Positions 10,811 to 38,577 of a stretch of 38,577 nt of DNA are shown in pieces. How positions within the stretch are numbered: position 1 is the first letter of the stretch; the number at the start of each line of letters is the position of its first letter. This DNA is from Rhodoferax sp. (lineage in GTDB: Bacteria > Pseudomonadota > Gammaproteobacteria > Burkholderiales > Burkholderiaceae_C), in the NCBI GenBank assembly GCA_021738345.1, contig JAIPCE010000011.1, positions 1 to 38,577 on the forward strand, in the 5' to 3' direction. Under the pieces are notes generated by a model that saw only the letters and a program-made list of their open reading frames with translations, did not search any database and had not been told where the DNA came from. Made by a program: the position numbers and the translations under genes.

Positions 10811-10848
10811 GCGATCTTCTTGCGGGGTCATGACTGGCACGGGTCGAC

Positions 10849-12228: not shown

Positions 12229-12234
12229 GTTCAT

Positions 12235-23228: not shown

Positions 23229-23408
23229 CCTAAATTCCTCAGTTGACCGCTTGCTAATGTTGGTAACTCTGCATGAACACTCACTTTATTGGTCTTGAAG
23301 GGTGTCACCTTGTGGGTGATCACGCTACCTGCCCGATGGAGGAATCTAGGATCATTGCCAACGAAGATAGCACAGCCACATGGTCTCCGCCATTTTTGCG
23401 TTGGCGGA

Positions 23409-23501
23409 GGGTGCGATTCAAAGTGGTGTGGCAATTCGGTTTTGCCCCCTCGCCCCAGCGGGGAGAGGGAATAAGATTCCACATCACTTTGATGTCGCAC
23501 C
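23409..23501. repeat. Long imperfect palindrome (possible REP/MITE-like element)
   Basis: The left arm GTGCGATTCAAAGTGGTGTGG (about 23411-23431) pairs with the right arm CCACATCACTTTGATGTCGCAC (about 23479-23500), with a few mismatches and one or two bulges. The interior holds GCCCCCTCGCCCC opposite GGGGAGAGGG, so nearly the whole 93 bp folds back. It lies in the 323-bp divergent region between kinase and response regulator, which otherwise holds no gene. Dispersed palindromes with a GC-rich core of this sort occur in many proteobacterial genomes; no second copy occurs in this window, so the repeat status is inferred. Confidence 0.55.
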
Positions 23502-23551
23502 GGTTGGCGGAAGTTCTGTGGCGCGGTGCGTTGCGACTAAACTTGCCAACC

Positions 23552-24226
23552 ATGGCCCGAATGATTCTTCTGGAAGACGAAAGTGTGTTGCGTGAAGAAC
23601 TCGCGGAGTACTTTGCGTCACATGGCCATTCGGTGGTGTGTGCGGGTTCCCTCGCCGAGTTTCAGCGTCTATGGGTGCCTGGCGCCTACCACCTCGCCTT
23701 GCTTGACCTAGGGCTGCCCGACGGTGACGGCATGGATCTGATTGCGCAATTGCGCAGGGAGGGCCATGACCTCGGGATCATCGTGTTCACTGCGCGCGCC
23801 AACAGCCGTGCCGAGGGGCTCAATATTGGTGCAGACCACTACATCACCAAGCCAGTGCGCCTTGCCGACCTGCTCGCCACGGTCAACGCCTTGGGGCGCC
23901 GCGTCGGTTTTGGCGCCGAGCTGTGGACCCTCGACCTGGCAAATCACCGTTTGCGGCCACCCAAAGGGGGCGATATTGCCCTGTCGGGTCACGACTTCTT
24001 CGTGCTGCGGGCGCTGTTGGCCTCCCAGGGCACGCCGGTGTCACGGCGCCAGATCATCTCGGCCATTGGCGAGGATTACCTGCACTTTGACCAGCGTCGC
24101 CTCGATACACAAATGAGTCGACTGAAAAAAAAGGTCCGAGACGCCTGCGACCTAGATTTACCGATCAAGTCGGTGCATGGCGTGGGCTATATTTTTTCTG
24201 GGCGGGCGATGGTGAAAGAGGGGTAA
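23552..24226 (+). CDS. OmpR/PhoB-family response regulator
   Basis: A 224-residue two-component regulator. The receiver domain (1-115) has acidic residues E8/D9/E10, phosphoacceptor Asp52 in LLDLGLPDGDG, Thr80 in FTARAN and Lys100 in ITKPV. The C-terminal winged helix (about 130-222) contains LSGHDFFVLRALLASQG, RRLDTQMSRLKKKV and the terminal VHGVGYIF hairpin. I place the start at 23552, where the family begins; an ATG three codons later is possible and the open frame extends upstream through the palindrome. It is head-to-head with the 7TMR-DISM kinase and 300 bp ahead of the hydrogenase small subunit; transcription of its own partner operon is the simplest role. Confidence 0.92.
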   Translation: MARMILLEDESVLREELAEYFASHGHSVVCAGSLAEFQRLWVPGAYHLALLDLGLPDGDGMDLIAQLRREGHDLGIIVFTARANSRAEGLNIGADHYITKPVRLADLLATVNALGRRVGFGAELWTLDLANHRLRPPKGGDIALSGHDFFVLRALLASQGTPVSRRQIISAIGEDYLHFDQRRLDTQMSRLKKKVRDACDLDLPIKSVHGVGYIFSGRAMVKEG

Positions 24227-24438: not shown

Positions 24439-24453
24439 TGGCCTGGTTCTTGC
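24439..24453 (+). promoter_or_regulatory. Sigma-54 (-24/-12) promoter of the hydrogenase operon
   Basis: TGGCCTGGTTCTTGC fits the RpoN consensus TGGCAC-N5-TTGCA: GG at 24440-24441 and GC at 24452-24453 are exactly ten bases apart. Transcription should start near 24465, leaving a leader of about 60 bases before hybO, whose ribosome binding site is GAGGAGA. Hydrogenase structural genes are driven from such promoters by HoxA/HupR-type activators, and hoxA lies in this locus at 35092. No other DNA in the 300 bp gap looks coding. Confidence 0.85.
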
Positions 24454-24525
24454 GGAAATGCGTGTAAACCGATGAATGCCGGCGCCTGACACGCCGCTAC
24501 TCACGCATACCGAGGAGAAGACGTC

Positions 24526-25710
24526 ATGACCATGGAAAATCTGATTGCACTCGAGACCGATGCACGCCTGGATGCGGCGGCGAAACGCCTGTCCATGTCG
24601 CGGCGCGAACTGCTGCAGTTTTGCGCTTCGCTGGCGACCACGCTGGGCCTGGCCGAGGGTGCCGACGCGGCGATTGCGCAAGCAGTCGCCACCAAAAAAC
24701 GCCCCAGTGTGATCTGGCTGCACTTTCAGGAGTGCACCGGCTGCACCGAATCGCTGCTGCGCGCCGAGCACCCCACGCTCGACAAGCTGATTCTGGATGT
24801 CATATCTCTGGACTACCACGAAACCCTGTTTGCCGCAGCCGGCCACCAGGTCGAGGCCGCGAGAAAACAGGCCATGACCGACCACAAGGGCAAGTACATT
24901 CTGGTCGTCGAAGGTGCCATCCCCACCAAAGACGGCGGCATTTACTGCAAGATTGGCGGCAAGACTGCCATCGAACTGCTCAAGGAATGCGCCGCCGATG
25001 CAGCGGCGGTGATTGCCATCGGTTCTTGCGCATCGTGGGGCGGCATGCCTTCCACTGACCCCAATCCCACGGGCGCATCGAGCGTGGCGCAGGTGCTCGG
25101 CAAGCCGGTTGTCACCATCCCGGGTTGTCCGCCCAATCCGTACAACTTCCTTTCGACCGTCGTTCACTTTTTGACCTTTGGCAAACTGCCGGCGGTGGAC
25201 CAGTTAGGTCGCCCCAAATTCGCCTATTCGCGCCTGATTCATGAAAACTGTGAGCGCCGTGCCCACTTTGATGCTGGCCGCTTTGCGATGGAATTTGGTG
25301 ACGACGGCCACCGCCAGGGCTTTTGCCTGTACAAGCTGGGTTGCAAAGGTCCCGAGACTTACGCCAATTGTTCCGTCATTCTGTTTGGCGATGCGGGTGC
25401 AGGCACCTGGCCGGTCGCCTGCGGTCACCCCTGCATTGGCTGCACCGAAAAGGGCATCGGTTTCCAGAAGCCGATCCATGCGCTCGCCAAGCTGAAAAAC
25501 CTCGAGCCTGGAGCTTTCCTGCCACGCATCGTCGAGGAAAAAGGCGTCGGCGCCTCGCTCGGTGCGGCGGCCGTACTGGCAGCGGTGGTGGGCGTGGGTG
25601 TCGGTGCCGGCGCCAAGTTCACCAAGAATCTGGGACTTTCACACGCCGCCGAGGAAATGGAAAAGGCCCGGGCATCCACTCAGGCCACGCCCAAGTCGAC
25701 GGAGGTGTGA
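24526..25710 (+). CDS. hybO: [NiFe] hydrogenase small subunit, Hyd-2 (group 1c) type
   Basis: A 394-residue iron-sulfur subunit that carries electrons from the NiFe site. A long Tat signal has the twin arginines in MSRRELLQF (Arg26-Arg27). Proximal [4Fe-4S] ligands are C70, C73, C168 and C201; distal ligands H239, C242, C267, C273; medial ligands C282, C303, C306. The proximal motif ECTGCTES has Gly between the cysteines, so the extra cysteine of oxygen-tolerant enzymes is missing. A hydrophobic segment at 342-364 anchors the C terminus in the membrane with the protein facing the periplasm. First gene of the operon behind a sigma-54 promoter; a GGAGG near its stop serves hybA. Confidence 0.96.
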   Translation: MTMENLIALETDARLDAAAKRLSMSRRELLQFCASLATTLGLAEGADAAIAQAVATKKRPSVIWLHFQECTGCTESLLRAEHPTLDKLILDVISLDYHETLFAAAGHQVEAARKQAMTDHKGKYILVVEGAIPTKDGGIYCKIGGKTAIELLKECAADAAAVIAIGSCASWGGMPSTDPNPTGASSVAQVLGKPVVTIPGCPPNPYNFLSTVVHFLTFGKLPAVDQLGRPKFAYSRLIHENCERRAHFDAGRFAMEFGDDGHRQGFCLYKLGCKGPETYANCSVILFGDAGAGTWPVACGHPCIGCTEKGIGFQKPIHALAKLKNLEPGAFLPRIVEEKGVGASLGAAAVLAAVVGVGVGAGAKFTKNLGLSHAAEEMEKARASTQATPKSTEV

Positions 25711-25711
25711 A

Positions 25712-26731
25712 ATGGCCAACCGAAGAGATTTTCTGCGCGGCGTTCTCGCCAGCGCCGGCACGGTCGCGCTGGCACCAGAAACCGCCTGCGCGCGCGACAA
25801 CCTGCAGATACCCCCCGCTGGCCTAGGTCTGCTGTACGACTCGACGCTGTGCGTGGGCTGTCAGGCCTGTGTGGCAGCGTGCAAGCACGTCAACGAGAAC
25901 CCGGCAGAGTTCAGAACCATTGACCATCTGTGGGACTCCCCGATGGACACCACCGGTCACACCTTCAACGTGATCAAGGTCTATAGCAGCGGCAATGGCG
26001 AGACCAAAAACGCCGAAGAAAACGGCTTCGCGTTCATGAAGACTTCGTGCATGCATTGCGCTGATCCCTCATGCGTGTCGGCTTGCCCGGTGTCGGCAAT
26101 GCAAAAAGATCCCGTCACCGGCATCGTGACCTATGACGCCGATGCCTGCTTTGGCTGCCGATATTGCGTGGCCGCGTGTGCCTTTGGCATTCCCAAGTAC
26201 CAATACGATTCGCCCACCGGACGCATCGGGAAGTGCGAGTTGTGCCACCACCGCCACAAGGACGGACACTACTCCGCCTGCGCCGAGGTTTGCCCGACCG
26301 GGGCCACACTGTTCGGACGTACCTCCGATCTACTGGTCGAAGCCAAGCGGCGGCTCGCGCTCAAACCCGGCGAGTTCACCCATATCCCACGCGGACGTCT
26401 GCCCTACAGCGATGCTGCAGCCGAGAAGGCCAGCACCTGGCGCAAGGAGCCGGACCAGCGCTACGAGGCACAGATGGGCACCTATTTGCAGCACGTCTAT
26501 GGCGAAACCGAGTACGGCGGCACCCAGGTACTGAAACTCTCTTCGGTGAATTTCGAGAAACTCGGCATGCCCAAGCTGCCACCGCAATCTTCGGCCTCGA
26601 AGTCGGAGACGATTCAGCACACGATTTACCAGGGTATGGCCCTTCCCATCGCCATGCTGGTGGGGATGACCTATTTCGCCAAACGCAACACGGCCAAAGA
26701 TGAAGACCCGGCGCCAGGAGAGCAGCCATGA
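25712..26731 (+). CDS. hybA: Hydrogenase ferredoxin-like subunit HybA
   Basis: A 339-residue exported electron-transfer protein that links the hydrogenase to HybB. It begins with a Tat signal (NRRDFLRG). Four iron-sulfur binding groups follow: CVGCQACVAAC, CMHCADPSCVSAC, CFGCRYCVAAC and CELCHHRHKDGHYSACAEVC, each fitted for a [4Fe-4S] cluster as in the DmsB/HybA family. A hydrophobic C-terminal segment (IYQGMALPIAMLVGMTYFA) probably anchors it on the periplasmic face. The start at 25712 has GGAGG six bases upstream. It overlaps hybB as ATGA. Because HybO and HybA each have their own Tat leader, both are exported independently. Confidence 0.95.
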   Translation: MANRRDFLRGVLASAGTVALAPETACARDNLQIPPAGLGLLYDSTLCVGCQACVAACKHVNENPAEFRTIDHLWDSPMDTTGHTFNVIKVYSSGNGETKNAEENGFAFMKTSCMHCADPSCVSACPVSAMQKDPVTGIVTYDADACFGCRYCVAACAFGIPKYQYDSPTGRIGKCELCHHRHKDGHYSACAEVCPTGATLFGRTSDLLVEAKRRLALKPGEFTHIPRGRLPYSDAAAEKASTWRKEPDQRYEAQMGTYLQHVYGETEYGGTQVLKLSSVNFEKLGMPKLPPQSSASKSETIQHTIYQGMALPIAMLVGMTYFAKRNTAKDEDPAPGEQP

Positions 26732-27879
26732 GCACACAAGTACACGCAGCGCCCCTAGGCGGGCGGCTTCTTAACCCGGTCACTCTGGTGTGCGGTCTGC
26801 TGATCGCCGCCATGATGGCGGTCCTGATCGCCCGCTTTGTGTTTGGCCTGGGTGCGGTCACCAATCTCAATGACGGTTATCCCTGGGGGCTGTGGGTGGT
26901 GGTTGACGTGCTGATCGGTTCGGCCTTTGCCTGTGGCGGCTTTTCGGTGGCGATGCTGGTCTACATTTTCAACAAGGGCGAATACCATCCACTGGTCCGC
27001 CCGGCCTTGCTGACCAGCCTGTTTGGCTACACCTTGGCCGGGGTGGGCGTGTTGTTTGACCTGGGCCGCTACTGGAATTTCTGGCACATCTTGTGGCCCG
27101 GCTACGGCAATCTGAATTCGGCACTGTTCGAAACGGCGGCCTGCATTTCGGTTTACATCCTGGTGATGTGGATCGAGTTTTCGCCGGTGTTCATGGAAAA
27201 ATTCGGACTCAACGTGGCCAAGAAAAAACTCAGCAAAGTGCTGTTCATCTTTATCGCGCTCGGCACGGTCCTGCCGATGATGCACCAGTCTTCGATCGGC
27301 ACCTTGCTGGTTCTGATGGGAACCCAGGTCAATGCTTTGTGGCAAACGCCAGCGGTTCCGCTGCTGTACCTGCTTACCGCGATTACCATGGGCTATGGCG
27401 TGGTGCTGTTCGAGTCGTGCATTGCCTCATCGGCAGAGCGCCACAAGATCGAGGCACGCCTACTGCAACCGATGGCCAAAGTCATGCTTGGGCTGCTCGG
27501 TGCCTATCTGTTGGTGCGTGTGGCCGACTTGGTGCTGCGCGGGGCACTGGGCAACGCGTTTGAGCTCAGCTTGGTGGCGGTGTTTTTCTGGTTCGAGATG
27601 GTTCTGTTCGTGTTGCCATTTGTGCTGGTGGGTGCCGCCAAACAACGTCGCAACCCGGCACGTCTGTTCCTGGCAGGAGTTTCGATCATGCTCGGCGGTG
27701 CCGTGCTGCGACTCAATAGCTTCCTGATCGGTTACGACACCGGACCCGGCTGGAACTACTTTCCCTCCGTGGCCGAGTTTGTCGTCACGATTGGCATGTT
27801 TGCCATCGAGGTGCTTGGCTACATCATCATTACCCGTCGCTTCCCGGTACTGAACCAGGACGTGGCGTTGGCCCATTGA
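26728..27879 (+). CDS. hybB: Hydrogenase membrane subunit HybB (NrfD/PsrC family)
   Basis: A 383-residue polytopic membrane protein with about nine or ten hydrophobic segments, for example LVCGLLIAAMMAVLIARFVFGL, LWVVVDVLIGSAFACGGFSVAMLVY and ALLTSLFGYTLAGVGVLFDLGRYW. It has no heme-binding histidine pattern; members of this family pass electrons to the quinone pool without heme, and E. coli HybB can couple H2 oxidation to proton movement. HybB instead of a cytochrome b (HoxZ/HyaC) is what puts this enzyme in the Hyd-2 plan. The ATG overlaps the hybA stop by four bases, so translation is coupled. It is followed 23 bp on by the large subunit. Confidence 0.95.
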   Translation: MSTQVHAAPLGGRLLNPVTLVCGLLIAAMMAVLIARFVFGLGAVTNLNDGYPWGLWVVVDVLIGSAFACGGFSVAMLVYIFNKGEYHPLVRPALLTSLFGYTLAGVGVLFDLGRYWNFWHILWPGYGNLNSALFETAACISVYILVMWIEFSPVFMEKFGLNVAKKKLSKVLFIFIALGTVLPMMHQSSIGTLLVLMGTQVNALWQTPAVPLLYLLTAITMGYGVVLFESCIASSAERHKIEARLLQPMAKVMLGLLGAYLLVRVADLVLRGALGNAFELSLVAVFFWFEMVLFVLPFVLVGAAKQRRNPARLFLAGVSIMLGGAVLRLNSFLIGYDTGPGWNYFPSVAEFVVTIGMFAIEVLGYIIITRRFPVLNQDVALAH

Positions 27880-27902
27880 ATTCGAGACCCAAGGAGACAC
27901 AG

Positions 27903-29615
27903 ATGTCAAAACGTATCACCATTGATCCCGTGACCCGCATCGAGGGCCACCTGCGTGTGGACGTCGAGGTGGATGGCGGCCGAGTCAAAAAGGCCTGGGC
28001 CTCCGGGCAGATGTGGCGTGGCGTGGAAACCATTCTGCTCGGACGCGACCCGCGCGATGCCTGGGCCATCACGCAGCGCATTTGCGGAGTTTGCACCACC
28101 GTGCACGCGATGGCTTCGGTGCGGGCGGTCGAGAACGCCTTGCAACTCGAAATACCCGTCAACGCCCAGTACATCCGCAACATGATCATTCTGGCCCATG
28201 CCGTACATGACCACATCGTTCACTTTTATCATCTGTCGGCACTCGACTGGGTCGACGTGGTGTCAGCCCTGAAGGCCGATCCGGTCAAGACAGCCACCTT
28301 GGCGCAAAGCCTCTCCAACTGGAATGGCAACAGCGCGGCCGAGTTCACCAAGGTCAAAGAGCGGCTATCGGGTTTTGTCGGTACTGGCCAGTTGGGCATC
28401 TTCACCAACGGCTACTGGGGCCACCCGGCCATGAAGCTATCGCCCGAGGTCAACCTGCTCGCGGTCTCCCACTACCTGCAGGCGCTTGAAGTGCAGCGCT
28501 ATGCGAGCAAGATCGTCGCGGTACTGGGCTCCAAGTCACCGCACATCCAGAATGTAGCGGTGGGCGGTGTCGCCAACGCGCTGTCGCTGGACTCGCAGTC
28601 GGTGCTGACCATGGAGCGCCTGCTTGCGATCAAGGAATGGATGCTCAAACTCGACGACTTTGTGAAGAACGTCTATCTGATTGACGTCGCGGCCATTGGG
28701 GCCTTTTATGCCGACTGGACCAAGGTCGGGCGCGGTATCACCGAGTACCTGAGCGTTCCAGACATACCACTCGACGGCAAAGGTACCCAGTTTGCGCTGC
28801 CGGGCGGCTACATCGAGGGTGGCAAACTCGAGAGCTTCAAGCCCATCAAGTCGTTCAATGACCAGTATTTCATGGATGGCGTCTCCGAGGCCGTCAAACA
28901 CTCCTGGTACGACTACAAGGACGGCGACACCAAATCGCTGCATCCGTACCTGGGCGAGACCACCCCCAAATACACCGACTTCCAGGACGACGGCAAATAC
29001 TCCTGGCTCAAGTCGCCCACCTTCTACGGCAAACCGATGCAGGTCGGACCGCTGCCGCGGGTGCTCAATATGCTGGCGGCAGGCCACGAGCCGACCAAGA
29101 TGTACGCCACCAAGGCTCTGGACCTGGTTTCGACCATTGCCGGCACCAAGGTCGGACTCGATGCCATGCACTCCACTATTGGCCGCCACGCGGCCCGTGC
29201 CGTTAGCTGCGCAGTGCAGTGCGACGAGCTGGTCAAACAGTGGGACCTGTTGTTGGCCAACATGGCCAAAGGCGACCTCAAGACTTTCAATCGGCCGGAT
29301 TTCCCCAAGGGTGAGCAACGGGGCGTGGGATTCCACGAGGCGCCGCGTGGCGTGTTGTCACACTGGGTCGTCATCAAGGATGGCAAAATCGCCAATTACC
29401 AGTGCGTGGTACCCACCACCTGGAATGCCGCTCCGCGTAACGAGAAAGACCAGCCCGGCGCCTACGAGGCCTGTCTGGTCGATACGCCGGTGGCTGACCC
29501 CGAGAAACCGCTCGAGGTGCTGCGCACCGTGCACTCGTTTGACCCCTGTCTGGCCTGTGCGGTGCATGTGGTCGACCAGGAGAACCATCCAGTGGTCACG
29601 GTCACCGCGGTCTAG
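27903..29615 (+). CDS. hybC: [NiFe] hydrogenase large subunit
   Basis: A 570-residue catalytic subunit. The N-terminal motif RIEGHLRVD and the nickel ligands C61 and C64 in QRICGVCTTVH form one half of the active site; C549 and C552 in DPCLACAVH form the other. Ni(CN)2CO-Fe chemistry splits H2 into protons and electrons. A 15-residue tail (VVDQENHPVVTVTAV) after H555 is removed on maturation by the endopeptidase encoded next. It has no signal peptide and is exported with the small subunit by the Tat route. The start at 27903 is preceded by AAGGAGA; the open frame runs 9 codons further upstream. Confidence 0.97.
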   Translation: MSKRITIDPVTRIEGHLRVDVEVDGGRVKKAWASGQMWRGVETILLGRDPRDAWAITQRICGVCTTVHAMASVRAVENALQLEIPVNAQYIRNMIILAHAVHDHIVHFYHLSALDWVDVVSALKADPVKTATLAQSLSNWNGNSAAEFTKVKERLSGFVGTGQLGIFTNGYWGHPAMKLSPEVNLLAVSHYLQALEVQRYASKIVAVLGSKSPHIQNVAVGGVANALSLDSQSVLTMERLLAIKEWMLKLDDFVKNVYLIDVAAIGAFYADWTKVGRGITEYLSVPDIPLDGKGTQFALPGGYIEGGKLESFKPIKSFNDQYFMDGVSEAVKHSWYDYKDGDTKSLHPYLGETTPKYTDFQDDGKYSWLKSPTFYGKPMQVGPLPRVLNMLAAGHEPTKMYATKALDLVSTIAGTKVGLDAMHSTIGRHAARAVSCAVQCDELVKQWDLLLANMAKGDLKTFNRPDFPKGEQRGVGFHEAPRGVLSHWVVIKDGKIANYQCVVPTTWNAAPRNEKDQPGAYEACLVDTPVADPEKPLEVLRTVHSFDPCLACAVHVVDQENHPVVTVTAV

Positions 29616-29623
29616 GCGATTGC

Positions 29624-30100
29624 ATGCGTGTCGTTGTACTCGGTATCGGGAACATACTTCTATCGGATGAAGGTGTCGGAGTGCGCGTGATCGAACGTCT
29701 GGAGCAGAGGTATCGGCTGCCCCCTGAGCTTGAGGTCATAGACGGCGGCACCTGCGGCATGGAAATGCTCGAACAGCTCGAAGACCTCGACGCGCTGATC
29801 GTCGTCGACTGCGTGCGCTGCGGGCAGGCGCCTGCCACACCGGTGCTGCTCAAGGACGACGATGTGCCGGTGTTCTTCAAGACCAAGCTGTCACCGCACC
29901 AGGTGAGCCTGTCCGATGTGCTGGCCAGCCTGGAATTCACCCACCGCGCGCCCCGGCGCACCGTGATTGTCGGCATGCAGCCGGCCTCGATGGACCTGGG
30001 CATGGAGTTGACGCCGGCCGTGGCTGCGCGTCTGGATGAGTTGTTGAACATGTCCCTCGCCGAGTTGCGCGAGTTGGGTCTGCACCTGGAGCCCCGCTGA
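29624..30100 (+). CDS. hybD: Hydrogenase maturation endopeptidase (HybD/HupD, peptidase M52)
   Basis: A 158-residue nickel-dependent protease that trims the large-subunit C-terminal tail after Ni is inserted. GIGNILLSDEGVGV at the N terminus carries the metal-ligand Glu16; Asp62 in IVVDCVR and His92 in LSPHQVS complete the metal site known in HybD. The following HRAPRRTVIVGMQPASMDLGMELT is family-typical. It starts 8 bp after the large subunit stop, and its TGA shares one base with the hupF start (TGATG), so the genes are co-translated. It is expected to be specific for HybC of this operon; the regulatory HoxC normally has no tail to cut. Confidence 0.95.
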   Translation: MRVVVLGIGNILLSDEGVGVRVIERLEQRYRLPPELEVIDGGTCGMEMLEQLEDLDALIVVDCVRCGQAPATPVLLKDDDVPVFFKTKLSPHQVSLSDVLASLEFTHRAPRRTVIVGMQPASMDLGMELTPAVAARLDELLNMSLAELRELGLHLEPR

Positions 30101-30372
30101 TGTGTCTCTCGATCCCGATGTGCGTGGTGCAGTGCGAGGGCGACGGCGACTTTGCCTGGGTCGAGCGCGCAGGCAGGCGCGAGCGCATCAACATGATGTT
30201 GCTCGGACCACAGCCCATCGGCACCTGGGTCCTGACGCAGCTGGGGCTGGCACGCGAGGTCGTGGAACCGGAACAGCTCGCACTGATCGAGGAGGCACTG
30301 AGTGCCCTGGCCGCGTCGCTGGATGGCGACTTCGATCCCCAGCAGTATTTTCGCGACTTGCAGCGCGCATGA
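30100..30372 (+). CDS. hupF: HypC/HupF-type hydrogenase chaperone
   Basis: A 90-residue HypC-family protein beginning MCLSIPM, whose Cys2 coordinates the Fe(CN)2CO precursor in complexes with HypD and the large subunit. It differs from the second HypC-like gene (30996) by a longer C-terminal helical extension (ALIEEALSALAASLDGDFDPQQYF), a feature of HupF/HoxL proteins. These act with one hydrogenase and are thought to hold or protect its large subunit during aerobic maturation. It overlaps the preceding stop by one base and hybE by four (30369-30372). The assignment to HupF rather than HypC rests on length and position. Confidence 0.85.
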   Translation: MCLSIPMCVVQCEGDGDFAWVERAGRRERINMMLLGPQPIGTWVLTQLGLAREVVEPEQLALIEEALSALAASLDGDFDPQQYFRDLQRA

Positions 30373-30935
30373 CGGCACCGGGTCCGCGCCGCCCTGCCCT
30401 GGCGCCGCCGCCGTTGCGGATCGCCGAAGCACGCCCGGACAATCCGCAAGCTTTGCTCCAGCGGCACTACCAGCGGGTGTGGGAAACCCGCATGCAGGAC
30501 ATGCCGTTTGTCAACCCGTCGATCCGGGTCGAGGCGATGGATTTTGTGCGCCAGGGTGGCGACTGGCTCGGCGTGGTGGTAACACCTTGGTTTCTTTACC
30601 TGTTTTTGCTCAACGGCGGCGGCGCCCTCTGGAAAGACCTGTCGGCCGGGCAGCGCCAACTGGTGGCCCTGCCCTGCGGCGCGCTGCAATTCATTGCCGA
30701 CGATGACCCTGACCTGGGACTTTACCAATATTGCCCCCTGATTTCGGCGCTCGGCTCGCTGGCCGACCACGCCACGGCCCGTCAGGCGGCGCTGGATGCC
30801 ATGCATGCCGTACTGACTCCCGCCCTGCCCCCCAGCCCGATGGAGCCGGCGCCGGCGCTACCGTCTGCCACCCAGGTCGCAGCGCCTGCCGCTTCGCGAC
30901 GCGACTTTTTTCGAAAAATAGGCGGCCGGAGTTAG
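30369..30935 (+). CDS. hybE: HybE-family hydrogenase chaperone
   Basis: A 188-residue protein. The core (residues about 20-140) has the HybE/HupJ pattern: LLQRHYQRVWETRMQDMPFVNP, LGVVVTPWFLYLFLL, LPCGALQFIADDDPDLGLYQYCPLIS. HybE-type proteins bind the small subunit's Tat leader and delay export until folding and cluster insertion are complete. No rubredoxin domain is present, unlike some HupJ proteins. A Pro/Ala-rich linker (about 145-175) ends in a C-terminal twin-arginine motif, ASRRDFFRKIGG, very like the Tat motifs of HybO and HybA; see findings. It overlaps hupF by four bases and is followed by a 60-bp gap. Confidence 0.88.
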   Translation: MTAPGPRRPALAPPPLRIAEARPDNPQALLQRHYQRVWETRMQDMPFVNPSIRVEAMDFVRQGGDWLGVVVTPWFLYLFLLNGGGALWKDLSAGQRQLVALPCGALQFIADDDPDLGLYQYCPLISALGSLADHATARQAALDAMHAVLTPALPPSPMEPAPALPSATQVAAPAASRRDFFRKIGGRS

Positions 30936-30995
30936 TCCACGCCGGGTCGGTTTGCCGCAGAATGCAGCTTTATTTCGCTGTGAAGGAAAGTCAAC

Positions 30996-31223
30996 ATGTG
31001 CCTGGCCATTCCGGCTCAAGTGGTGGAACTGCTCGATAACGACAACGCGGTGGTGGATTTGGCCGGTGTGCGCAAGGAGATTTCGCTCGCGTTGGTCGAG
31101 GATGTCGCCCTGGGCGACTACGTCATTGTGCATGTCGGCTATGCGCTAAACAAACTCGACCCGCAGGAGGCAGCCAACACCTTGGCCTTGTTCGCACAAC
31201 TCGAATCGACTGCTCCCGTCTGA
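30996..31223 (+). CDS. hypC: HypC hydrogenase maturation chaperone
   Basis: A 75-residue HypC with N-terminal MCLAIPAQVVEL; Cys2 takes part in building the Fe(CN)2CO unit on HypCD and delivering it to large subunits. The middle GVRKEISLALVEDVALGDYVIVHVGYAL is the beta-barrel core and NTLALFAQLE the C-terminal helix. It is shorter than the HupF paralogue at 30100. GAAGGAAAG lies about 7 bases before the start. hypD follows after 11 bp, as in standard hypCDE groups. It may serve both the energy-linked hydrogenase and the regulatory HoxBC. Confidence 0.93.
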   Translation: MCLAIPAQVVELLDNDNAVVDLAGVRKEISLALVEDVALGDYVIVHVGYALNKLDPQEAANTLALFAQLESTAPV

Positions 31224-31234
31224 CGCCGCGCCCC

Positions 31235-32359
31235 ATGAAGTTCATTGACGAGTTTCGCGATGGTGATCTGGCACTCAGTATCGGTGGCACCATTCGCAAC
31301 GAGGCGCGGACTGACCGGCGCTACCACTTCATGGAGTTTTGTGGTGGCCACACCCATGCCATCTCGCGCTATGGCATTGCCGACCTGTTGCCTGACAACG
31401 TCAAAATGGTCCATGGACCCGGTTGCCCGGTGTGTGTGCTGCCCATTGGACGGGTCGATCAGGCGATCCGGCTGGCACTGGACCATGGCGTACTGCTCTG
31501 CACCTACGGCGACTGCCTGCGGGTACCGGCCTCGGACGGCCTCTCGCTGCTCAAGGCCCGCGCCCGCGGTGGGGACATCCGCATGGTCTACTCCAGTGCC
31601 GATGCGGTGGCGTTGGCACAAAAGTTTCCAGAACGGCAGGTCGTATTCTTTGCCATCGGGTTTGAAACCACGACGCCGCCGACCGCAGTGGCCATCAAGC
31701 AAGCGGCGGCGCTGGGCCTGACGAATTTTTCGGTCCTGTGCTGCCACGTGCTCACACCCTCAGCGATCTCGAGCATTCTCGAATCACCCGAGGTGCGGCA
31801 GTGGGGAACCGTGCCACTCGACGGTTTTATCGGGCCGGCCCATGTGTCGACCATTATTGGCAGCCGGCCATATGAATTTTTTGCCGAGGAATACCGCAAA
31901 CCCGTGGTCATTGCGGGCTTCGAGCCGCTGGACGTCATGCAGGCGATTCGCATGTTGGTGCGTCAGGTCAATGAAGGGCGCGCCGAAGTGGAAAACGAGT
32001 TCTCGCGTGCCGTCAGCCGCGACGGCAACCTCAAGGCGCAGGCGCTGGTGGCGGAGGTGTTTGAGCTGCGCAAGAGCTTCGAGTGGCGCGGCCTGCATGA
32101 GTTGCCGTATTCGGCGCTGCGCATCCGCCAGCAATTTGCTGCATTTGACGCCGAACACCGATTTACCGTTGCCTACCAGCCAGTGGCCGACCACAAGGCC
32201 TGCGAATGCGGCGCTATTTTGCGCGGCGTCAAACGCCCACAGGATTGCAAGCTGTTTGGCAATGTCTGCACCCCCGAGAACCCGGTCGGCTCGTGCATGG
32301 TGTCTTCCGAGGGTGCCTGCGCCGCCCACTATAGCTACGGACGCTACAAGGATGTCTGA
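31235..32359 (+). CDS. hypD: HypD, Fe-cofactor assembly protein
   Basis: A 374-residue scaffold for the Fe(CN)2CO cofactor. Conserved motifs are EFCGGHTHA, HGPGCPVC, GFETTTPPTA and a C-terminal cysteine-rich region (CECGAILRG, CTPENPVGSCMVSSEGACAAHY) which binds a [4Fe-4S] cluster. HypD with HypC receives cyanide from HypE and CO from HypX or another source. Its last 8 bases overlap the start of hypE, a typical coupling. The length is that of the family. No Tat or membrane segment is present; the protein acts in the cytoplasm. Confidence 0.96.
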   Translation: MKFIDEFRDGDLALSIGGTIRNEARTDRRYHFMEFCGGHTHAISRYGIADLLPDNVKMVHGPGCPVCVLPIGRVDQAIRLALDHGVLLCTYGDCLRVPASDGLSLLKARARGGDIRMVYSSADAVALAQKFPERQVVFFAIGFETTTPPTAVAIKQAAALGLTNFSVLCCHVLTPSAISSILESPEVRQWGTVPLDGFIGPAHVSTIIGSRPYEFFAEEYRKPVVIAGFEPLDVMQAIRMLVRQVNEGRAEVENEFSRAVSRDGNLKAQALVAEVFELRKSFEWRGLHELPYSALRIRQQFAAFDAEHRFTVAYQPVADHKACECGAILRGVKRPQDCKLFGNVCTPENPVGSCMVSSEGACAAHYSYGRYKDV

Positions 32360-33404
32360 AATCCGCAAGAACTACGTGCGCCCGCTTGACCTCAAGCGCG
32401 GCCAGATCGACATGGCGCATGGCTCCGGCGGTCGCGCCATGGCGCAATTGATCGAAGAGCTGTTTGCCCGCCACCTCGGCAACGAGTGGCTGGCGCAGGG
32501 CGACGATGGTGCCTTGCTCCCGGCGCCGGGCGCGGGTCGACTGGTGATGGCGACCGACAGCCATGTGGTGTCGCCGCTGTTTTTTCCGGGCGGCGATATC
32601 GGTTGCCTGGCGGTCCATGGCACGGTCAACGACGTGGCGGTGATGGGCGCCACGCCGCTGTGGCTGTCGGCGTCCTTCATCCTCGAAGAAGGCCTGCCGC
32701 TGGCCGACCTGGCGCGCATCGTCGAGAGCATGGCACGGGCAGCGCGCGACACAGGCGTCCCTGTCGTCACCGGCGACACCAAGGTCGTGCAGCGCGGCAA
32801 GGGCGACGGCGTCTTCATTACCACCACCGGAGTCGGTGTGGTGGCACCCGGTTGCGAACTGTCGGGGCGACAGGCCCAGGTCGGTGATGCCATTTTGGTC
32901 TCGGGTACGCTGGGTGACCATGGCATGGCGATCATGGCCGTGCGAGAAAGCCTGGGGTTTGTCTCGCCCATCGTCTCTGACACAGCGGCGCTGCACGGGC
33001 TGATCGCGGTCATGCGGGCCAGCGGTGCCGCGCTCCACGCGCTGCGTGACCCCACGCGCGGCGGTGTGGCGACCACGCTCAATGAGATCGCGCGGCAGTC
33101 AGGCGTGGGCATGATGCTGCAGGAGAAGTCCATTCCGGTCAAGCCCGCGGTGTCTGCGGCCTGCGAGTTTCTGGGACTCGACCCGCTCTACGTTGCCAAC
33201 GAGGGCAAGCTGGTGGCCTTTTGCCCTAGCGAAGACGCTCCTCGCCTGCTGGCGGCCATGCAATCCCATCCGCTGGGGCGCGACGCAGCGATCATCGGCA
33301 GCGTGCATGCCGACGCCCATCACTTTGTACAAATGACCACCAGCTTTGGCGGTCGGCGGATTGTCGACTGGCTGAGCGGTGAGCAGTTGCCGCGCATCTG
33401 TTAG
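32352..33404 (+). CDS. hypE: HypE, cyanide-ligand synthesis protein
   Basis: A 350-residue PurM-like ATPase. The N-terminal AHGSGGRAM and the GDDGALLPAP segment, the MATDSHVVSPLFFPGGDIG nucleotide region and the invariant C-terminal PRIC are typical; the last Cys (Cys350) is carbamoylated by HypF, then dehydrated with ATP to thiocyanate, donating CN to the Fe centre. I selected the ATG at 32352 because homology (MSEIRKNYVRPLDL, then GQIDMAHGSGG) begins there; the longer open frame is unrelated. Overlap with hypD is 8 bases. HypF, its carbamoyl donor partner, is not in this window. hypX starts 14 bp downstream. Confidence 0.96.
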   Translation: MSEIRKNYVRPLDLKRGQIDMAHGSGGRAMAQLIEELFARHLGNEWLAQGDDGALLPAPGAGRLVMATDSHVVSPLFFPGGDIGCLAVHGTVNDVAVMGATPLWLSASFILEEGLPLADLARIVESMARAARDTGVPVVTGDTKVVQRGKGDGVFITTTGVGVVAPGCELSGRQAQVGDAILVSGTLGDHGMAIMAVRESLGFVSPIVSDTAALHGLIAVMRASGAALHALRDPTRGGVATTLNEIARQSGVGMMLQEKSIPVKPAVSAACEFLGLDPLYVANEGKLVAFCPSEDAPRLLAAMQSHPLGRDAAIIGSVHADAHHFVQMTTSFGGRRIVDWLSGEQLPRIC

Positions 33405-33418
33405 GCCCCGGTTTTGCC

Positions 33419-35095
33419 ATGCGCATACTTCTGCTGACCCACAGTTTCAACAGCCTGACCCAGCGCTTGTTTACCGAGTTGCGGGCGCAAAAGCATACGG
33501 TGAGTGTCGAATTCGATATTTCGGACGCGGTCACCGAGGAGGCGGTCGCACTGTTTCGCCCGGATCTGGTGCTGGCGCCGTTTCTCAAGCGCGCCATCCC
33601 CGCGTCGGTCTGGAGCCGGCACCTCTGTCTGGTGGTGCATCCGGGTGTTGAAGGCGACCGTGGCCCCTCGGCGCTGGACTGGGCGCTGCAGCAGGGCCTG
33701 AGCCGCTGGGGTGTGACGGTGTTACAGGCGCAGGCCGAGATGGACGCCGGCCCGGTGTGGGCCAGCGAAAACTTTGATTTGCCCAGCGCGAGGAAGTCAT
33801 CGGTCTACCGGCGCGAAGTGACCGAGGCGGCGGTGCGCTGTGTCGCGCTTGCCGTGCAGCGTGTTCAGTCCGGTGACTTCACGCCACGCACTGTGCCGGG
33901 CCAGGCCCATGTGCCGATGGCACAAAACCACCGTCGCATCGACTGGCAGGCCGACCCGACGGCAGTCGTTCTGGCGAAACTGCGCGCGGCTGACGGTGTT
34001 CCCGGGGTGGCTGATACGCTGTTTGGCCAACCCTGTCATTTGTTCGACGCCTGGCCTGAGGCCGAGCTGCGCGGCACACCCGGCGATGTGCTGGTGCGGC
34101 GGGAGACGGCCATTTTGCGCGCCACCTGTGACGCGGCGGTGTGGATTGGCCATGTCAAACGCCCGGGGGGCTTCAAATTGCCCACCACGCTGGCGTTTCC
34201 CGAAGCCAGTGCCTTGCCGGAAAGCACCCTGACTCCCTGGCTGAAGGCTGGCTCGCCGACCTGGCAAGACATCGCCTATACCGAGAGCGACGGGGTCGGT
34301 TTTCTGGACTTCGAGTTTTACAACGGTGCCATGTCCACCGCCCAATGCCAGCGGCTGCAGCAGGCCGTGGTCTGGGCCGCGACCCAGCCCACAGGTGTCA
34401 TCGTATTGCGCGGCGGAGCCGACTTTTGGTCCAACGGCATTCACCTCAACACCATTGAAGCGGCAGCCAGTCCGTCGGACGAATCATGGGCCAACATTGT
34501 GGCCATGGACGACCTGACCGAGGCCATTTTGCGCTGCGAAACCCACTATACGGTGGCCGCACTGCGCGGTGGAGCCGGCGCCGGCGGATGTTTTCTGGCA
34601 CGTGCCGCCGACCTGGTGTGGGTGCGCGACGGCACGGTGCTGAACCCGCACTACAAGAACATGGGCAATCTGTATGGCTCGGAACTCTGGACCTACCTGC
34701 TACCGAAACGGGTTGGCACGGCCGGTGCCCACGCCATCATGCGCAATCGCCTGCCCATGACCGCCGCCGATGCGGTCCGCACCGGTCTGTATGACCGGTG
34801 TCTGCCGAGTGCCGGTTTTGACGCCGAAGTCATGCTGCGTGCGCAGGCGCTGGCCAAATCTTGCCAGCTTGCCAGCCTGCTGTCCGACAAGGCCGCCATG
34901 CGCCGCACCGATGAAGCGGCCAAGCCGCTGGCGAGCTACCGACACGAAGAGCTGAGGGAAATGCAGCGCAATTTTTACGGCTTTGACGCCTCCTACCATG
35001 TGGCGCGCCACCACTTCGTGCGCCGTTCGCCGCAATCTTGGACACCGCGCCACCTCGCGCTGCACCGTGAACTCGACTGGAAGATTCCCGCATGA
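33419..35095 (+). CDS. hypX: HypX/HoxX, CO-ligand synthesis enzyme
   Basis: A 558-residue two-domain protein. Residues 1 to about 265 resemble formyltetrahydrofolate-dependent transferases (VVHPGVEGDRGPSALDWALQQG is the conserved pocket); about 280-540 form a crotonase-like domain (GVIVLRGGADFWSNGIHLN, RGGAGAGGCFLARAADLVW, LNPHYKNMGNLYGSE). HypX makes the active-site CO from formyl-THF through formyl-CoA and is used under aerobic conditions. Its presence implies that the hydrogenase matures in air or low oxygen. Its TGA overlaps the hoxA start as ATGA. It lies 14 bp after hypE. Confidence 0.94.
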   Translation: MRILLLTHSFNSLTQRLFTELRAQKHTVSVEFDISDAVTEEAVALFRPDLVLAPFLKRAIPASVWSRHLCLVVHPGVEGDRGPSALDWALQQGLSRWGVTVLQAQAEMDAGPVWASENFDLPSARKSSVYRREVTEAAVRCVALAVQRVQSGDFTPRTVPGQAHVPMAQNHRRIDWQADPTAVVLAKLRAADGVPGVADTLFGQPCHLFDAWPEAELRGTPGDVLVRRETAILRATCDAAVWIGHVKRPGGFKLPTTLAFPEASALPESTLTPWLKAGSPTWQDIAYTESDGVGFLDFEFYNGAMSTAQCQRLQQAVVWAATQPTGVIVLRGGADFWSNGIHLNTIEAAASPSDESWANIVAMDDLTEAILRCETHYTVAALRGGAGAGGCFLARAADLVWVRDGTVLNPHYKNMGNLYGSELWTYLLPKRVGTAGAHAIMRNRLPMTAADAVRTGLYDRCLPSAGFDAEVMLRAQALAKSCQLASLLSDKAAMRRTDEAAKPLASYRHEELREMQRNFYGFDASYHVARHHFVRRSPQSWTPRHLALHRELDWKIPA

Positions 35096-36564
35096 GCGCA
35101 ATCGCGGTGCGCAAACTCCCGGCGGTTCTGGTGGTCGACGATGAAGTGCGCTCGCAGGAGGCCTTGCGGCGCACGCTGGAGGAAGATTTCGAGGTCTACT
35201 GTGCGGGTAGCGCTGCGGCGGGCATGGAAATTTTGGAACAGGAGCAGTCCGCCGCCACGATACGGGTGGTTCTGTGTGATCAGCGCATGCCGGGCACGAC
35301 AGGCGTTGCATTCCTGAAAGAGGTGCGCAACCGGTGGCCGGACGCCGTGCGCATCATCCTGTCCGGCCACACCGACGCCGAAGACATCATCAGCGGTGTC
35401 AACGAGGCAGGCATCTGGCAGTACCTGCTGAAACCCTGGCAGCCCGAGCAGATGCTGCTCACCCTCAAGCGCGCCTCCGAGGTCTGGCGCCTGCAACAGG
35501 ACAACCAGCGGCTGTCGCTGGACTTGCGCACTGCCGAGCCGGTGCTCAAGAGACGGGTCGAATCCAAATACGACAAATTGCGCCATGCCTATGGCGTGCG
35601 CGGCCTGACCCGGGGTCCCGCCAGCCCGCTGAACGCGGTGTGCGCCCTGGTGGAGCGTATCGCTGTGTTTGACCTTTCGGTTCTGGTCACCGGGGAATCC
35701 GGCACGGGCAAGGAAATGGTCGCCCGTGCCATCCACTTTGAGAGCCACCGCACCGACCGTCCATTCATTACCGAAAATTGCGGCGCCCTGCCCGATACCC
35801 TGCTCGAGTCCGAGCTTTTCGGCTACCGGCGCGGCGCATTTACCGGTGCCACCGAAGACCGCGTCGGGTTGTTCCAGCAAGCCGATGGCGGAACTTTGTT
35901 TCTCGATGAAATTGGCGACACCAGCCCGGCCTTTCAGGTCAAGCTGCTGCGCGTGCTGCAAGAAGGCGAGTTCCGGCCACTGGGCAGCAACCGCCCTGTG
36001 AATGTCGACGTGCGCGTGATCGCGGCCACCAACCGGGACCTGGAGGACGATGTTCGCACTGGCCGTTTCCGGCAGGACCTGTATTACCGCCTGGCAACCG
36101 TCTCGCTGCACGTGCCCCCGCTGCGCGAGCGCGCAATGGACCTCGCGTTGCTGGCGCAGCGCCTGCTCGAAAGCAGCAACCGTGCCTTGGGCAAGTCGGT
36201 GCAGGGGTTCAGCAGCGAAGCATTGGCGTGCCTGGCAGCCTACCCCTGGCCGGGCAATGTGCGGCAGTTGCAAAACGAGATTCTTCGCATGGTCGCTTTG
36301 ACCGATAGCCCCACCCTGGGCGCAGAACTGCTGTCGCCCCAGGTCATGCGCACGCCGGTAGGTGAAAGCCACAGCGAAGACCTGGTTCGACTGGCCAGTC
36401 TGTCGGGGGGATTGAAGGAGCGCATGGACTTGCTGGAAAACCAGGTGATTCGCGAGACCATGATTCGTAACCGCTGGAACAAGTCGGCCGCAGCGCGCGA
36501 ATTGGGGCTGTCGCGCGTGGGTTTGCGTGCCAAACTGGCGCGCGCCGGACTGGAGCCCCGCTGA
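35092..36564 (+). CDS. hoxA: HoxA/HupR, sigma-54-dependent response regulator of hydrogenase genes
   Basis: A 490-residue NtrC-family activator. The receiver domain has Asp16/Asp17, phosphoacceptor Asp63 in CDQRMPG and Lys114. The AAA+ domain holds Walker A GESGTGKE (201-208), the sigma-54-contact loop GAFTGA (248-253) and Walker B around [11 protein letters not shown]. The C-terminal Fis-type helix-turn-helix ends [21 protein letters not shown]. In the known HoxABCJ circuits HoxA activates the sigma-54 hydrogenase promoter and H2 sensing controls its phosphorylation. A sigma-54 promoter with exact GG-N10-GC spacing lies upstream of hybO. It overlaps hypX and hoxB. Confidence 0.95.
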
Positions 36565-37559
36565 TGCGCGTCCTTTGGCTGCAAAGTGGTGGCTGCGGGG
36601 GTTGCACCCAGTCCCTGCTTTGTTCCGAACCGCGCGCGCTGTTCGACGAGCTGCGCGATGCCGGAATCCGCTTCGTGTGGCATCCCGCACTGGCTCACGA
36701 GAGCGACAGCGAAGCCTTGCAAGTGTTGCAAAGCTGCGCCGACGGAAGCATCGCCTTCGATGTGCTGTGTGTAGAAGGTGCCATGCTGCGCGGCCCCAAC
36801 GGCACCGGAAAGTTTCACCTTATGGCCGGCAGTGGTGCGCCCATGACCGAGTGGGTGCAGCGTTTGGCGCTGCGCGCACGCTGGGTATTTGCGATCGGTT
36901 CGTGCAGTGCCTTCGGTGGACTCTCGGCCAGCACGCCAGGCAATCCGCTGCAAGCAACCGGCCTGCAGTACGAAACCAGCGACTTTGGGGGGTTACTGGG
37001 AGAGGAGTTCGTGTCGCAGGGAGGACTTCCCGTGGTCAACATTGCGGGCTGCCCGGTGCATCCTGGCTGGGTCGTCGATACCTTGGAAAAACTGGCGCTC
37101 GAAGGCCTGCAGCGCAGCGACCTGGACGAACTGGGGCGACCCTTGCTGTATGCCGACCAGTTGGTGCACCACGGTTGCCCGCGCAACGAATATTACGAAT
37201 TCAAGGCCAGCGCCAAAAAGCATTCTGACCAGGGCTGTCTCATGGAAAATCTGGGTTGCAAGGGCACACAGGCACATGCAGACTGCAATATCCGACCCTG
37301 GAACGGCAACGGCTCGTGTCTGCGCGGAGGCTTTGCGTGCATTACCTGCGTCGAGCCCGGATTTGAGGCGCCAGGGCACCCGTTCCAGGAGACGCGCAAG
37401 CTCGCTGGCATCCCGATTGGCTTGCCCGCCGACATGCCCAAGGCCTGGTTTGTCGCGCTGGCAGCGCTGTCCAAATCGGCCACCCCGAAACGGGTACGTG
37501 CCAACTCCATGGCCGACCATACGGTGGTGCGTCCGGCCGTCAGAAAGTCTGAGAAATGA
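36564..37559 (+). CDS. hoxB: Regulatory (H2-sensing) hydrogenase small subunit HoxB/HupU
   Basis: A 331-residue small subunit without any Tat leader, as expected of a cytoplasmic H2 sensor (group 2b). The proximal cluster motif is GGCGGCTQS (C11, C14); AIGSCSAFGG, IAGCPVHPG, HHGCPRNEYYEF, CLMENLGCKGTQ and CITCVEPGF supply the remaining ligands. With HoxC it binds H2 but turns it over slowly, and reports to the kinase HoxJ, which acts on HoxA. It starts on the last base of the hoxA stop (TGATG), and its own stop overlaps hoxC as ATGA. The C-terminal tail (KRVRANSMADHTVVRPAVRK) is basic and may contact the kinase. Confidence 0.95.
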   Translation: MRVLWLQSGGCGGCTQSLLCSEPRALFDELRDAGIRFVWHPALAHESDSEALQVLQSCADGSIAFDVLCVEGAMLRGPNGTGKFHLMAGSGAPMTEWVQRLALRARWVFAIGSCSAFGGLSASTPGNPLQATGLQYETSDFGGLLGEEFVSQGGLPVVNIAGCPVHPGWVVDTLEKLALEGLQRSDLDELGRPLLYADQLVHHGCPRNEYYEFKASAKKHSDQGCLMENLGCKGTQAHADCNIRPWNGNGSCLRGGFACITCVEPGFEAPGHPFQETRKLAGIPIGLPADMPKAWFVALAALSKSATPKRVRANSMADHTVVRPAVRKSEK

Positions 37560-38577
37560 CGCGCATCGTTCTGGGTCCCTTCAACCGGGTCGAAGGCGAC
37601 CTCGAGATCACGCTGGACGTGGAGGCGGGTTATGTCCGGTCGGCACGCGTGAGCTCGCCCCTTTTCAGGGGCTTTGAGCAACTGCTGGTCGGCCGCGCAC
37701 CGCAGGACGCCTTGGTCATCGTGCCGCGCATCTGTGGCATTTGCTCGGTGGCGCAGTCTGCCGCTGCGGCAGCCGCATTGGCCTCGCTCGGCGGTGCCGA
37801 GGTTCCACACAATGGCCGCCTGGCCAGCTACCTGATCCAGGCCACCGAAAATCTGGCCGACCATCTGACCCACTTTTACCTGTTCTTTATGCCCGACTTT
37901 GCCCGGGAGTCGTACACGAATCAGGGTTGGCACCCGCAGGTACGGGCGCGCTTTACTGCCTTGCAGGGCACGGCTGCGCCGGAAGTGCTGCGCGCACGAA
38001 GCCAGTTTTTTCAACTGATGGGATATCTTGCCGGTCGCTGGCCGCACTCGCTAGCGCTGCAGCCCGGCGGAAGCACCCGAGCCATGGCGTCAGCCGAGCG
38101 CGTGCGCGTTTTGGCCTTGCTGCGCGGCTTTCGGGACTTTCTTGAAACAACCCTGTTAGGCGACCGTCTGGAGCGTTTTGGCGAACTGCACACCGAGGCG
38201 CAGTTGCGCGACTGGAGCGCTGGCCGGGCGGGCGATTTCCCCTGGTTTTTGAGGCTCGCGTTCGACCTGCAGCTCGAGCAAGTCGGCAAATCCTGTGATC
38301 GCTTCCTGTCTTGCGGTGCCTACGGACTTTTTCAAGCGGGTGTCTGGCAAACCGGCCAGGCCACCGAGCCGCTCGATACCTCGCTGATTCTGGAGGACAC
38401 CCATTGCGGGTGGATGCTGGCAGGGCCACCACTGCCACCGGCAAAGGGTGAAACGGTAGTCGACGCCGACAAGGCACAGGCCTACACCTGGTGCAAGGCA
38501 CCGCGCTACGGCGGGCAGATTGCCGAAACTGGCGCTTTGGCGCGGCAACTGGTGGCCGGCCACCCCTTGTCGAGAGC
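37556..38577 (+). CDS. hoxC: Regulatory hydrogenase large subunit HoxC/HupV (partial)
   Basis: The first 340 residues of a hydrogenase large subunit are present, cut by the window end. The start FNRVEGDLEITLDVE and the Ni-binding motif VPRICGICSVAQS mark the HupV/HoxC group: RICGICSV in place of the RICGVC of the energy-linked enzyme. The second Ni-binding motif and the C terminus are outside, so absence of a cleavable tail cannot be checked. It overlaps hoxB by four bases. The sensor kinase hoxJ, and possibly hypA, hypB and hypF, would be expected beyond the end. Confidence 0.94.
   Translation, partial: MTRIVLGPFNRVEGDLEITLDVEAGYVRSARVSSPLFRGFEQLLVGRAPQDALVIVPRICGICSVAQSAAAAAALASLGGAEVPHNGRLASYLIQATENLADHLTHFYLFFMPDFARESYTNQGWHPQVRARFTALQGTAAPEVLRARSQFFQLMGYLAGRWPHSLALQPGGSTRAMASAERVRVLALLRGFRDFLETTLLGDRLERFGELHTEAQLRDWSAGRAGDFPWFLRLAFDLQLEQVGKSCDRFLSCGAYGLFQAGVWQTGQATEPLDTSLILEDTHCGWMLAGPPLPPAKGETVVDADKAQAYTWCKAPRYGGQIAETGALARQLVAGHPLSR

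Follow-up and report, generated by a model that had tools for sequence, protein, structure and literature searches.

Locus and gene content

We analyzed a stretch of 38,577 nucleotides of Rhodoferax sp. (the window), which is contig C284 of a draft genome (G000; 4.87 Mb in 346 contigs, 90.8% complete). From 24526 to 38577, on the forward strand, open reading frame (ORF) calls and family models place the genes hybOABCD-hypC (HupF-like)-hybE-hypCDE-hypX-hoxABC. This is a nickel-iron (NiFe) hydrogenase of the hybOABC plan, with a ferredoxin subunit and an NrfD-like HybB, together with HypX and the hydrogen-sensor system HoxABC, and a preliminary description of the sequence had given the same gene content. 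Adjacent genes overlap or lie no more than about 60 bases apart, so the cluster is likely to be one long operon. Its features are as follows.

24439..24454, +: sigma-54-type -24/-12 promoter-like site TGGCCTGGTTCTTGCG, 87 bases 5' of hybO; scores 13 of 16 (ad hoc) and aligns with Dechloromonas/Azonexus-type loci
24526..25710, +: hybO, small subunit with a signal of the twin-arginine translocation (Tat) type and a four-cysteine proximal cluster (family model, motif, alignment)
25712..26731, +: hybA, ferredoxin-type iron-sulfur subunit (NF008134, above cut-off)
26728..27879, +: hybB, NrfD-like membrane subunit (NF008133, above cut-off)
27903..29615, +: hybC, group 1c large subunit; the ORF opens at TTG 27876 (models, structures, tree)
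29624..30100, +: hybD, maturation endopeptidase (family model)
30100..30372, +: HypC paralogue with a HupF-like C-terminal extension (family model, comparison)
30369..30935, +: chaperone of the hybE/hoxT family (family models)
30996..31223, +: hypC (65% identity to Cupriavidus necator HypC1)
31235..32359, +: hypD (family model), the sole copy found in the genome
32352..33404, +: hypE (family model)
33419..35095, +: hypX, the sole copy found in the genome, catalytic residues retained
35092..36564, +: hoxA, sigma-54-dependent response regulator (family models; 57% to C. necator HoxA)
36564..37559, +: hoxB, small subunit of the hydrogen (H2) sensor (65% to C. necator HoxB)
37556..38577, +: hoxC, large subunit of the H2 sensor, truncated by the contig end

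The Hyb enzyme is of the Hyd-2 type

NiFe hydrogenases are sorted into groups with names such as 1c, 1d, 1e, 2b and 3d. Sequence comparisons support a place for the Hyb enzyme in group 1c (Hyd-2-type), with a conventional four-cysteine proximal cluster. HybC shares 58% identity with E. coli HybC, as against 48% for Methylovirgula HynL, 45% for C. necator HoxG, and 44% for E. coli HyaB; HybO is 57% identical to E. coli HybO. Among solved structures, HybC matches those of Hyd-2 best (768 bits), followed by 3myr from Allochromatium vinosum (583 bits). In a tree of 105 large subunits, which was built by a quick method and has some long branches (E. coli HybC among them), HybC falls within an 82-row Hyb clade (support 98), and 1d (100) and 1e (97) are separate. 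A phylogeny was the check that the preliminary description had proposed for HybC, and this placement rules out membership in the oxygen-tolerant group 1d.

The family models agree in part. HybA and HybB exceed the curated cut-offs of the E. coli Hyd-2 models. For HybO and HybC, the E. coli models are the best match but the cut-offs are missed (501.6 bits against 659 and 870.1 against 969, respectively); HybO passes the general small-subunit model TIGR00391. These misses lower our confidence in orthology with Hyd-2, not in the class, as the models fit a narrow E. coli-type family.

The cluster-binding motif of HybO is ECTGCTES. Both supernumerary positions (64 and 165 of the HyaA precursor, which we take to be the extra cysteines of oxygen-tolerant enzymes) are glycine, so HybO does lack the extra proximal cysteine, as first described. 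Across the small-subunit alignment, the HybO rows, including the window's, have glycine at these positions in 68 (with one gap) and 69 of 69 cases; cysteine is found in 20 of 20 HoxK/HyaA rows and glycine in 4 of 4 HynS rows. The six-cysteine proximal cluster that is typical of 1d is therefore absent from the window's HybO (G/G). Nor do the cluster genes include a cytochrome b subunit, HoxO, HoxQ, HoxR, or HoxV, and positions 1-24600 of the window have no matches to the C. necator or E. coli proteins. A rubredoxin gene (HupI/HoxR) is missing from the cluster too, as had been noted; the only PF00301 match in the genome is a 58-residue protein on contig C120, which is 40% identical to HoxR over its core and lies away from the hydrogenase genes.

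The HypC paralogue is closest to Methylovirgula HypC and to HupF of Rhizobium leguminosarum, and it has a C-terminal extension. HybE ends in SRRDFFRKIGGRS, which resembles a Tat motif, on a Tat-related chaperone.

HypX and the enzymes it could serve

HypX has formyl-transferase and enoyl-CoA-hydratase domains. Residues 1-554 align to HypX of Aquifex aeolicus (6j0p; 566 bits), and, judged by eye from this alignment, it retains His74, Asp80, Asp109, Tyr416, and Glu426, which are the putative catalytic residues given in PMC6802093. According to a review, the protein makes the carbon monoxide (CO) ligand during oxic growth and is described mainly for the maturation of oxygen-tolerant hydrogenases (PMC12134894).

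The preliminary description asked whether a second hydrogenase is what HypX and HoxABC actually serve. There are two candidates. A 1e-type enzyme has its large subunit on contig C223, following an Isp2-like CCG protein (among solved structures 3myr is closest, at 920 bits), and its small subunit (CTGCTES) with a HupK-like protein on C22; a 3d enzyme, HoxFUYH, is on C346. Neither is a six-cysteine 1d enzyme. Searches with PF00374 and TIGR00391 found no such enzyme in the 90.8%-complete draft (a further match, on contig C254, belongs to the sensor), and to the extent that a draft of this completeness allows, we reject a neighboring 1d enzyme in this genome.

HypX, HypD, and full-length HypF were each found in one copy, so as many as four enzymes, counting the sensor, would have to share them. 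Besides Hyb, HypX probably also matures the sensor and both of the other enzymes (3d and 1e). The earlier suggestion that CO supply and H2 sensing serve a conventional proximal cluster thus stands as to the co-location of the genes and the aligned promoter-like site, but not as to exclusive service to Hyb.

The H2 sensor

The contig ends within hoxC. Another contig, C254, opens with the C-terminus of HoxC (which ends in CTVH, without an extension), and hoxJ, encoding a PAS-type kinase, follows; hypABF are on C345. The preliminary description had proposed to look for hoxJ and hypABF elsewhere in the genome. The two hoxC ends do not overlap: about 20 residues are missing relative to HoxC of Azoarcus taiwanensis (L050), and comparison with a relative puts the gap between the contigs at about 60 bases. 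HoxC has I62 and F110, as in the C. necator sensor, and the catalytic enzymes that we compared carry V and L; we take I62/F110 to be a gas channel of the regulatory hydrogenase (RH) type. HoxJ has the motif GTGLGLS and its counterpart in strain H16 has GTGLSLS.

A candidate promoter before hybO

We compared the best 80 of at least 586 loci with relatives of HybC, using flanks of at most 10 kb, which hide further linked genes. hypX or hoxA is in the hyb locus in 23 of the 80, and 8 have the whole run from hybC to hoxABC. We also searched the whole genomes of 40 relatives drawn from these loci (41 genomes with the source).

Promoters for sigma-54 have a -24/-12 consensus, and we scanned for it with an ad hoc score whose maximum is 16. 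The site before hybO aligns with a matching stretch in each of the ten Dechloromonas/Azonexus-type loci that we aligned, with the GG altered in one (L020). The sequence upstream of hybO was readable in 66 of the 80 loci. A site scoring at least 13 is present between -140 and -40 in 15 of 22 loci with linked hypX or hoxA, versus 5 of 23 loci that are unlinked although 9 kb or more is visible on either side (p = 0.0027) or, if all unlinked loci are counted, 12 of 44 (p = 0.003); these tests count related loci as independent. The aligned site makes the proposed wiring of Hyb to HoxA somewhat better supported.

The same scan bears on the idea that the main clients of HypX and HoxABC are the other hydrogenases (3d HoxFUYH and 1e) and that hyb is a passenger. 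Those enzymes do exist in the genome, and a 13-scoring match lies upstream of hynS, the small-subunit gene of the 1e enzyme (L013, near 1547), although inside a gene. Also, the soluble (3d) enzyme of C. necator is described as made oxygen-insensitive by HypX (PMC2974642). Because HoxH has a match in 40 of the 41 genomes (39 of them with at least 65% identity), a 3d partner is nearly always present. On the other hand, no match exceeds 11 in the 600 bases before hoxF, and none exceeds 12 where hupK begins (1000 bases scanned), as compared with the aligned site before hybO, and hypX or hoxA shares a locus with hyb in the 23 of 80 loci even with a 10-kb view. We think it unlikely that hyb is just a passenger.

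Occurrence in other genomes

The preliminary description presented the pairing of a Hyb enzyme with HypX and HoxABC as unusual, and this is not supported. The same order, hybOABCD-HupF/HypC-hybE-hypCDE-hypX-hoxABC, was published in 2009 for the hydrogenase-2 cluster of Dechloromonas aromatica RCB (VIMSS581373-581386 and following), where a HupT kinase comes next (PMC2907700). As the hydrogenase section of that genome paper describes, a 1d-type cluster with a rubredoxin, hoxKGZMLOQRTV-hypABF, lies just upstream; oxygen is not discussed in that section (PMC2907700). In our genome, the searches turned up no 1d enzyme, and hypABF lie on a different contig. Our literature search, mostly at the level of titles and abstracts, yielded no paper whose title or abstract deals with HypX next to a Hyb enzyme.

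The two halves of the cluster each resemble a classic system. By annotation and position, the membrane-bound hydrogenase locus on pHG1 of C. necator H16 has the order hypCDEX-hoxABCJ, and HypX, HoxA, and HoxB of the window are 57%, 57%, and 65% identical to their H16 counterparts, but the structural module there is a 1d hoxKGZ with hoxMLOQRTV instead of hybOABC. Conversely, E. coli K-12 has the hybOABCDE order (in hybOABCDEFG, Hyd-2), but hypX and hoxABCJ are not annotated within the 14 kb around its hyb operon.

Of the 40 relatives, 13 have a 1d enzyme, 3 have a 1e enzyme (one has both), and in 25 neither was identified. These classes rest on large-subunit matches of at least about 62 bits, of which 17 full-length sequences that were not HybC-like were fetched and the other 40, one per genome, were taken as HybC by score; they leave out partial matches in two genomes (G029, contigs C78 and C45; G008, contig C83). 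Among the 25 relatives without a 1d or 1e enzyme, 22 have HypX and 21 have HoxB. The arrangement is thus real, recurrent, and already published, and the Rhodoferax locus is a further member rather than a novelty.

These relatives also speak to whether the locus is a remnant, left when a composite of the Dechloromonas type did not retain the neighboring 1d enzyme that HypX and HoxABCJ had served. Besides the 1d-type cluster beside hyb in D. aromatica, the 13 relatives with a 1d enzyme include six (G002, G003, G004, G005, G007, and G015) whose 1d large-subunit gene shares a contig with hybC, at a distance of 11-17 kb. A foreign origin is also suggested by HypX itself. When 399 genomes of the order are compared, one genus (g82, five genomes) of another family (f21) has the closest HypX and HoxB, with identities of 68-71% and 75-80%, respectively. 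Within the window's own family (f1), 11 other genomes include just two with HypX (57% and 51%) and one with HoxB (65%). These identities suggest horizontal transfer, and from its HypX scores, genus g82 appears to be Dechloromonas-like. But the frames of hypX, hoxA, and hoxB are open, and HypX keeps its catalytic residues. Furthermore, since HypX and HoxB are found in 22 and 21 of the 25 relatives without 1d or 1e, retention without a 1d enzyme is common. We consider a remnant very improbable.

In the nearest relative (L014 in genome G001), HybC is about 95% identical to the window's, HypX is 74% identical, and HoxH is 76% identical. To judge by these identities, the pace at which HybC, HypX, and HoxH evolve or are transferred seems to differ. 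Also, 8 of the 41 genomes (G001, G003, G005, G009, G012, G013, G018, and G026) encode a second HoxB-like protein, with 38-44% identity. In G012 and G013, its gene adjoins a 1d cluster with genes resembling hoxC and hoxJ; G001, G009, and G018 are among the 25 relatives without a 1d or 1e enzyme.

HypX and the H2 sensor across the order

In the 399 genomes of the order, HypX is found in 34 (cut-off 1e-100), HoxB in 37 (1e-90), and a group-1 small subunit in 86 (1e-60). Among those 86, HoxB is present in 19 of 26 genomes with HypX versus 16 of 60 without (p = 9e-5), in tests that count related genomes as independent. The 1d class is present in 15 of 26 versus 31 of 60 (p = 0.64), with the line for this class set by us at 495 bits: 29 of the 30 best loci carry CTCC(S/T)ES, one is off-pattern, and lower-scoring loci were left out. 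If we consider genomes without a 1d enzyme, the link to HoxB stays (7 of 11 with HypX versus 1 of 29 others, p = 1.3e-4).

These numbers raise the possibility that the H2 sensor is the main reason why HypX is kept. HoxBC would have to mature in air before H2 can be sensed, and HypX would track the sensor, not the output enzyme. The 41 genomes point the same way: HypX is present in 36 and HoxB in 37, and HoxB accompanies 35 of the 36 occurrences of HypX versus 2 of the 5 genomes without it. Experiments fit as well, in that the C. necator sensor, when produced aerobically in E. coli, was more active with C. necator HypX and HoxN present, with no such gain for sensor made under O2 limitation (PMC9100943). 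Nevertheless, HypX cannot be for the sensor only, because 15 of the 34 HypX genomes have no HoxB match (8 of the 34 have no group-1 small subunit). The association with HoxB also weakens among genomes of the 1d class (12 of 15 versus 15 of 31, p = 0.058), and kin genomes were counted as independent. We view a role mainly in sensor maturation as rather unlikely.

Neighboring genes

Just 5' of hybO (21162-24226), the window encodes a 7TMR-DISM histidine kinase on the reverse strand and, on the forward strand, a response regulator that has a Trans_reg_C domain. About 12 kb 5' of hyb (7725-12234) are genes for a RuBisCO large subunit of 461 amino acids, CbbQ, and a VWA protein, probably CbbO. From its length and its neighbors, we read this RuBisCO as form II. 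Nearby RuBisCO genes would fit H2-driven CO2 fixation at low O2. Terminator-like sites (11, versus 13.3 in shuffled sequences) and sigma-70-like sites (2 versus 2.7) are not in excess.

Discussion

We think it fairly likely that this cluster encodes an H2-inducible uptake hydrogenase of group 1c within a maturation and regulation chassis of the C. necator type, and that the enzyme is assembled with HypX when O2 is present. HoxBC would bind H2 and HoxJ would then control HoxA, which, at the -24/-12 site that precedes hybO, would drive RNA polymerase-sigma-54. The NiFe(CN)2CO cofactor would be built by HypCDE together with HypABF, whose genes lie elsewhere, and HypX would supply CO from formyl-tetrahydrofolate (formyl-THF) when O2 is present. 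Assembly of Hyb could then be possible under oxic or micro-oxic conditions despite the conventional proximal cluster. With the oxygen behavior of E. coli Hyd-2 as background, catalysis would probably be best at low O2. To judge from homologues, Hyb would face the periplasm and reduce quinones, and it is also from homologues that we infer the binding of HoxA, the need for HypX, and the response to O2.

Besides the kinship among the loci, several points weigh against this proposal. The promoter-like site scores 13 of 16, a weak value by itself that 957 of 20000 random windows attain, and there are 11 matches scoring 14 elsewhere in the window. So it is the position and the conservation of the site that support it, and 7 of the 22 linked loci do not have it. 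These stronger matches, together with the one 5' of hynS, make us slightly less confident in an H2-inducible Hyb and slightly more so in hyb as a passenger. The genome does encode 1e and 3d enzymes that HypX could serve. Also, the reading frame of the HoxC piece on C254 (L010, bases 1-343) is interrupted by a stop some 25 bases from the edge of the contig, which leaves an intact hoxC unproven. The sensor might be broken, or the stop may be an assembly-edge error.

More tentatively, and with a little less than even confidence, we propose that HypX marks mainly H2-sensor-controlled hydrogenases and not six-cysteine ones. Under this proposal, a widespread betaproteobacterial class would assemble a 1c enzyme in O2, under H2/HoxA/sigma-54 control, for use at low oxygen. 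If 1c enzymes also need HypX in air, then the assembly of the cofactor in O2 and catalysis in O2 would be separate traits. This bears on which bacteria should be counted as aerobic H2 oxidizers in metagenomes.

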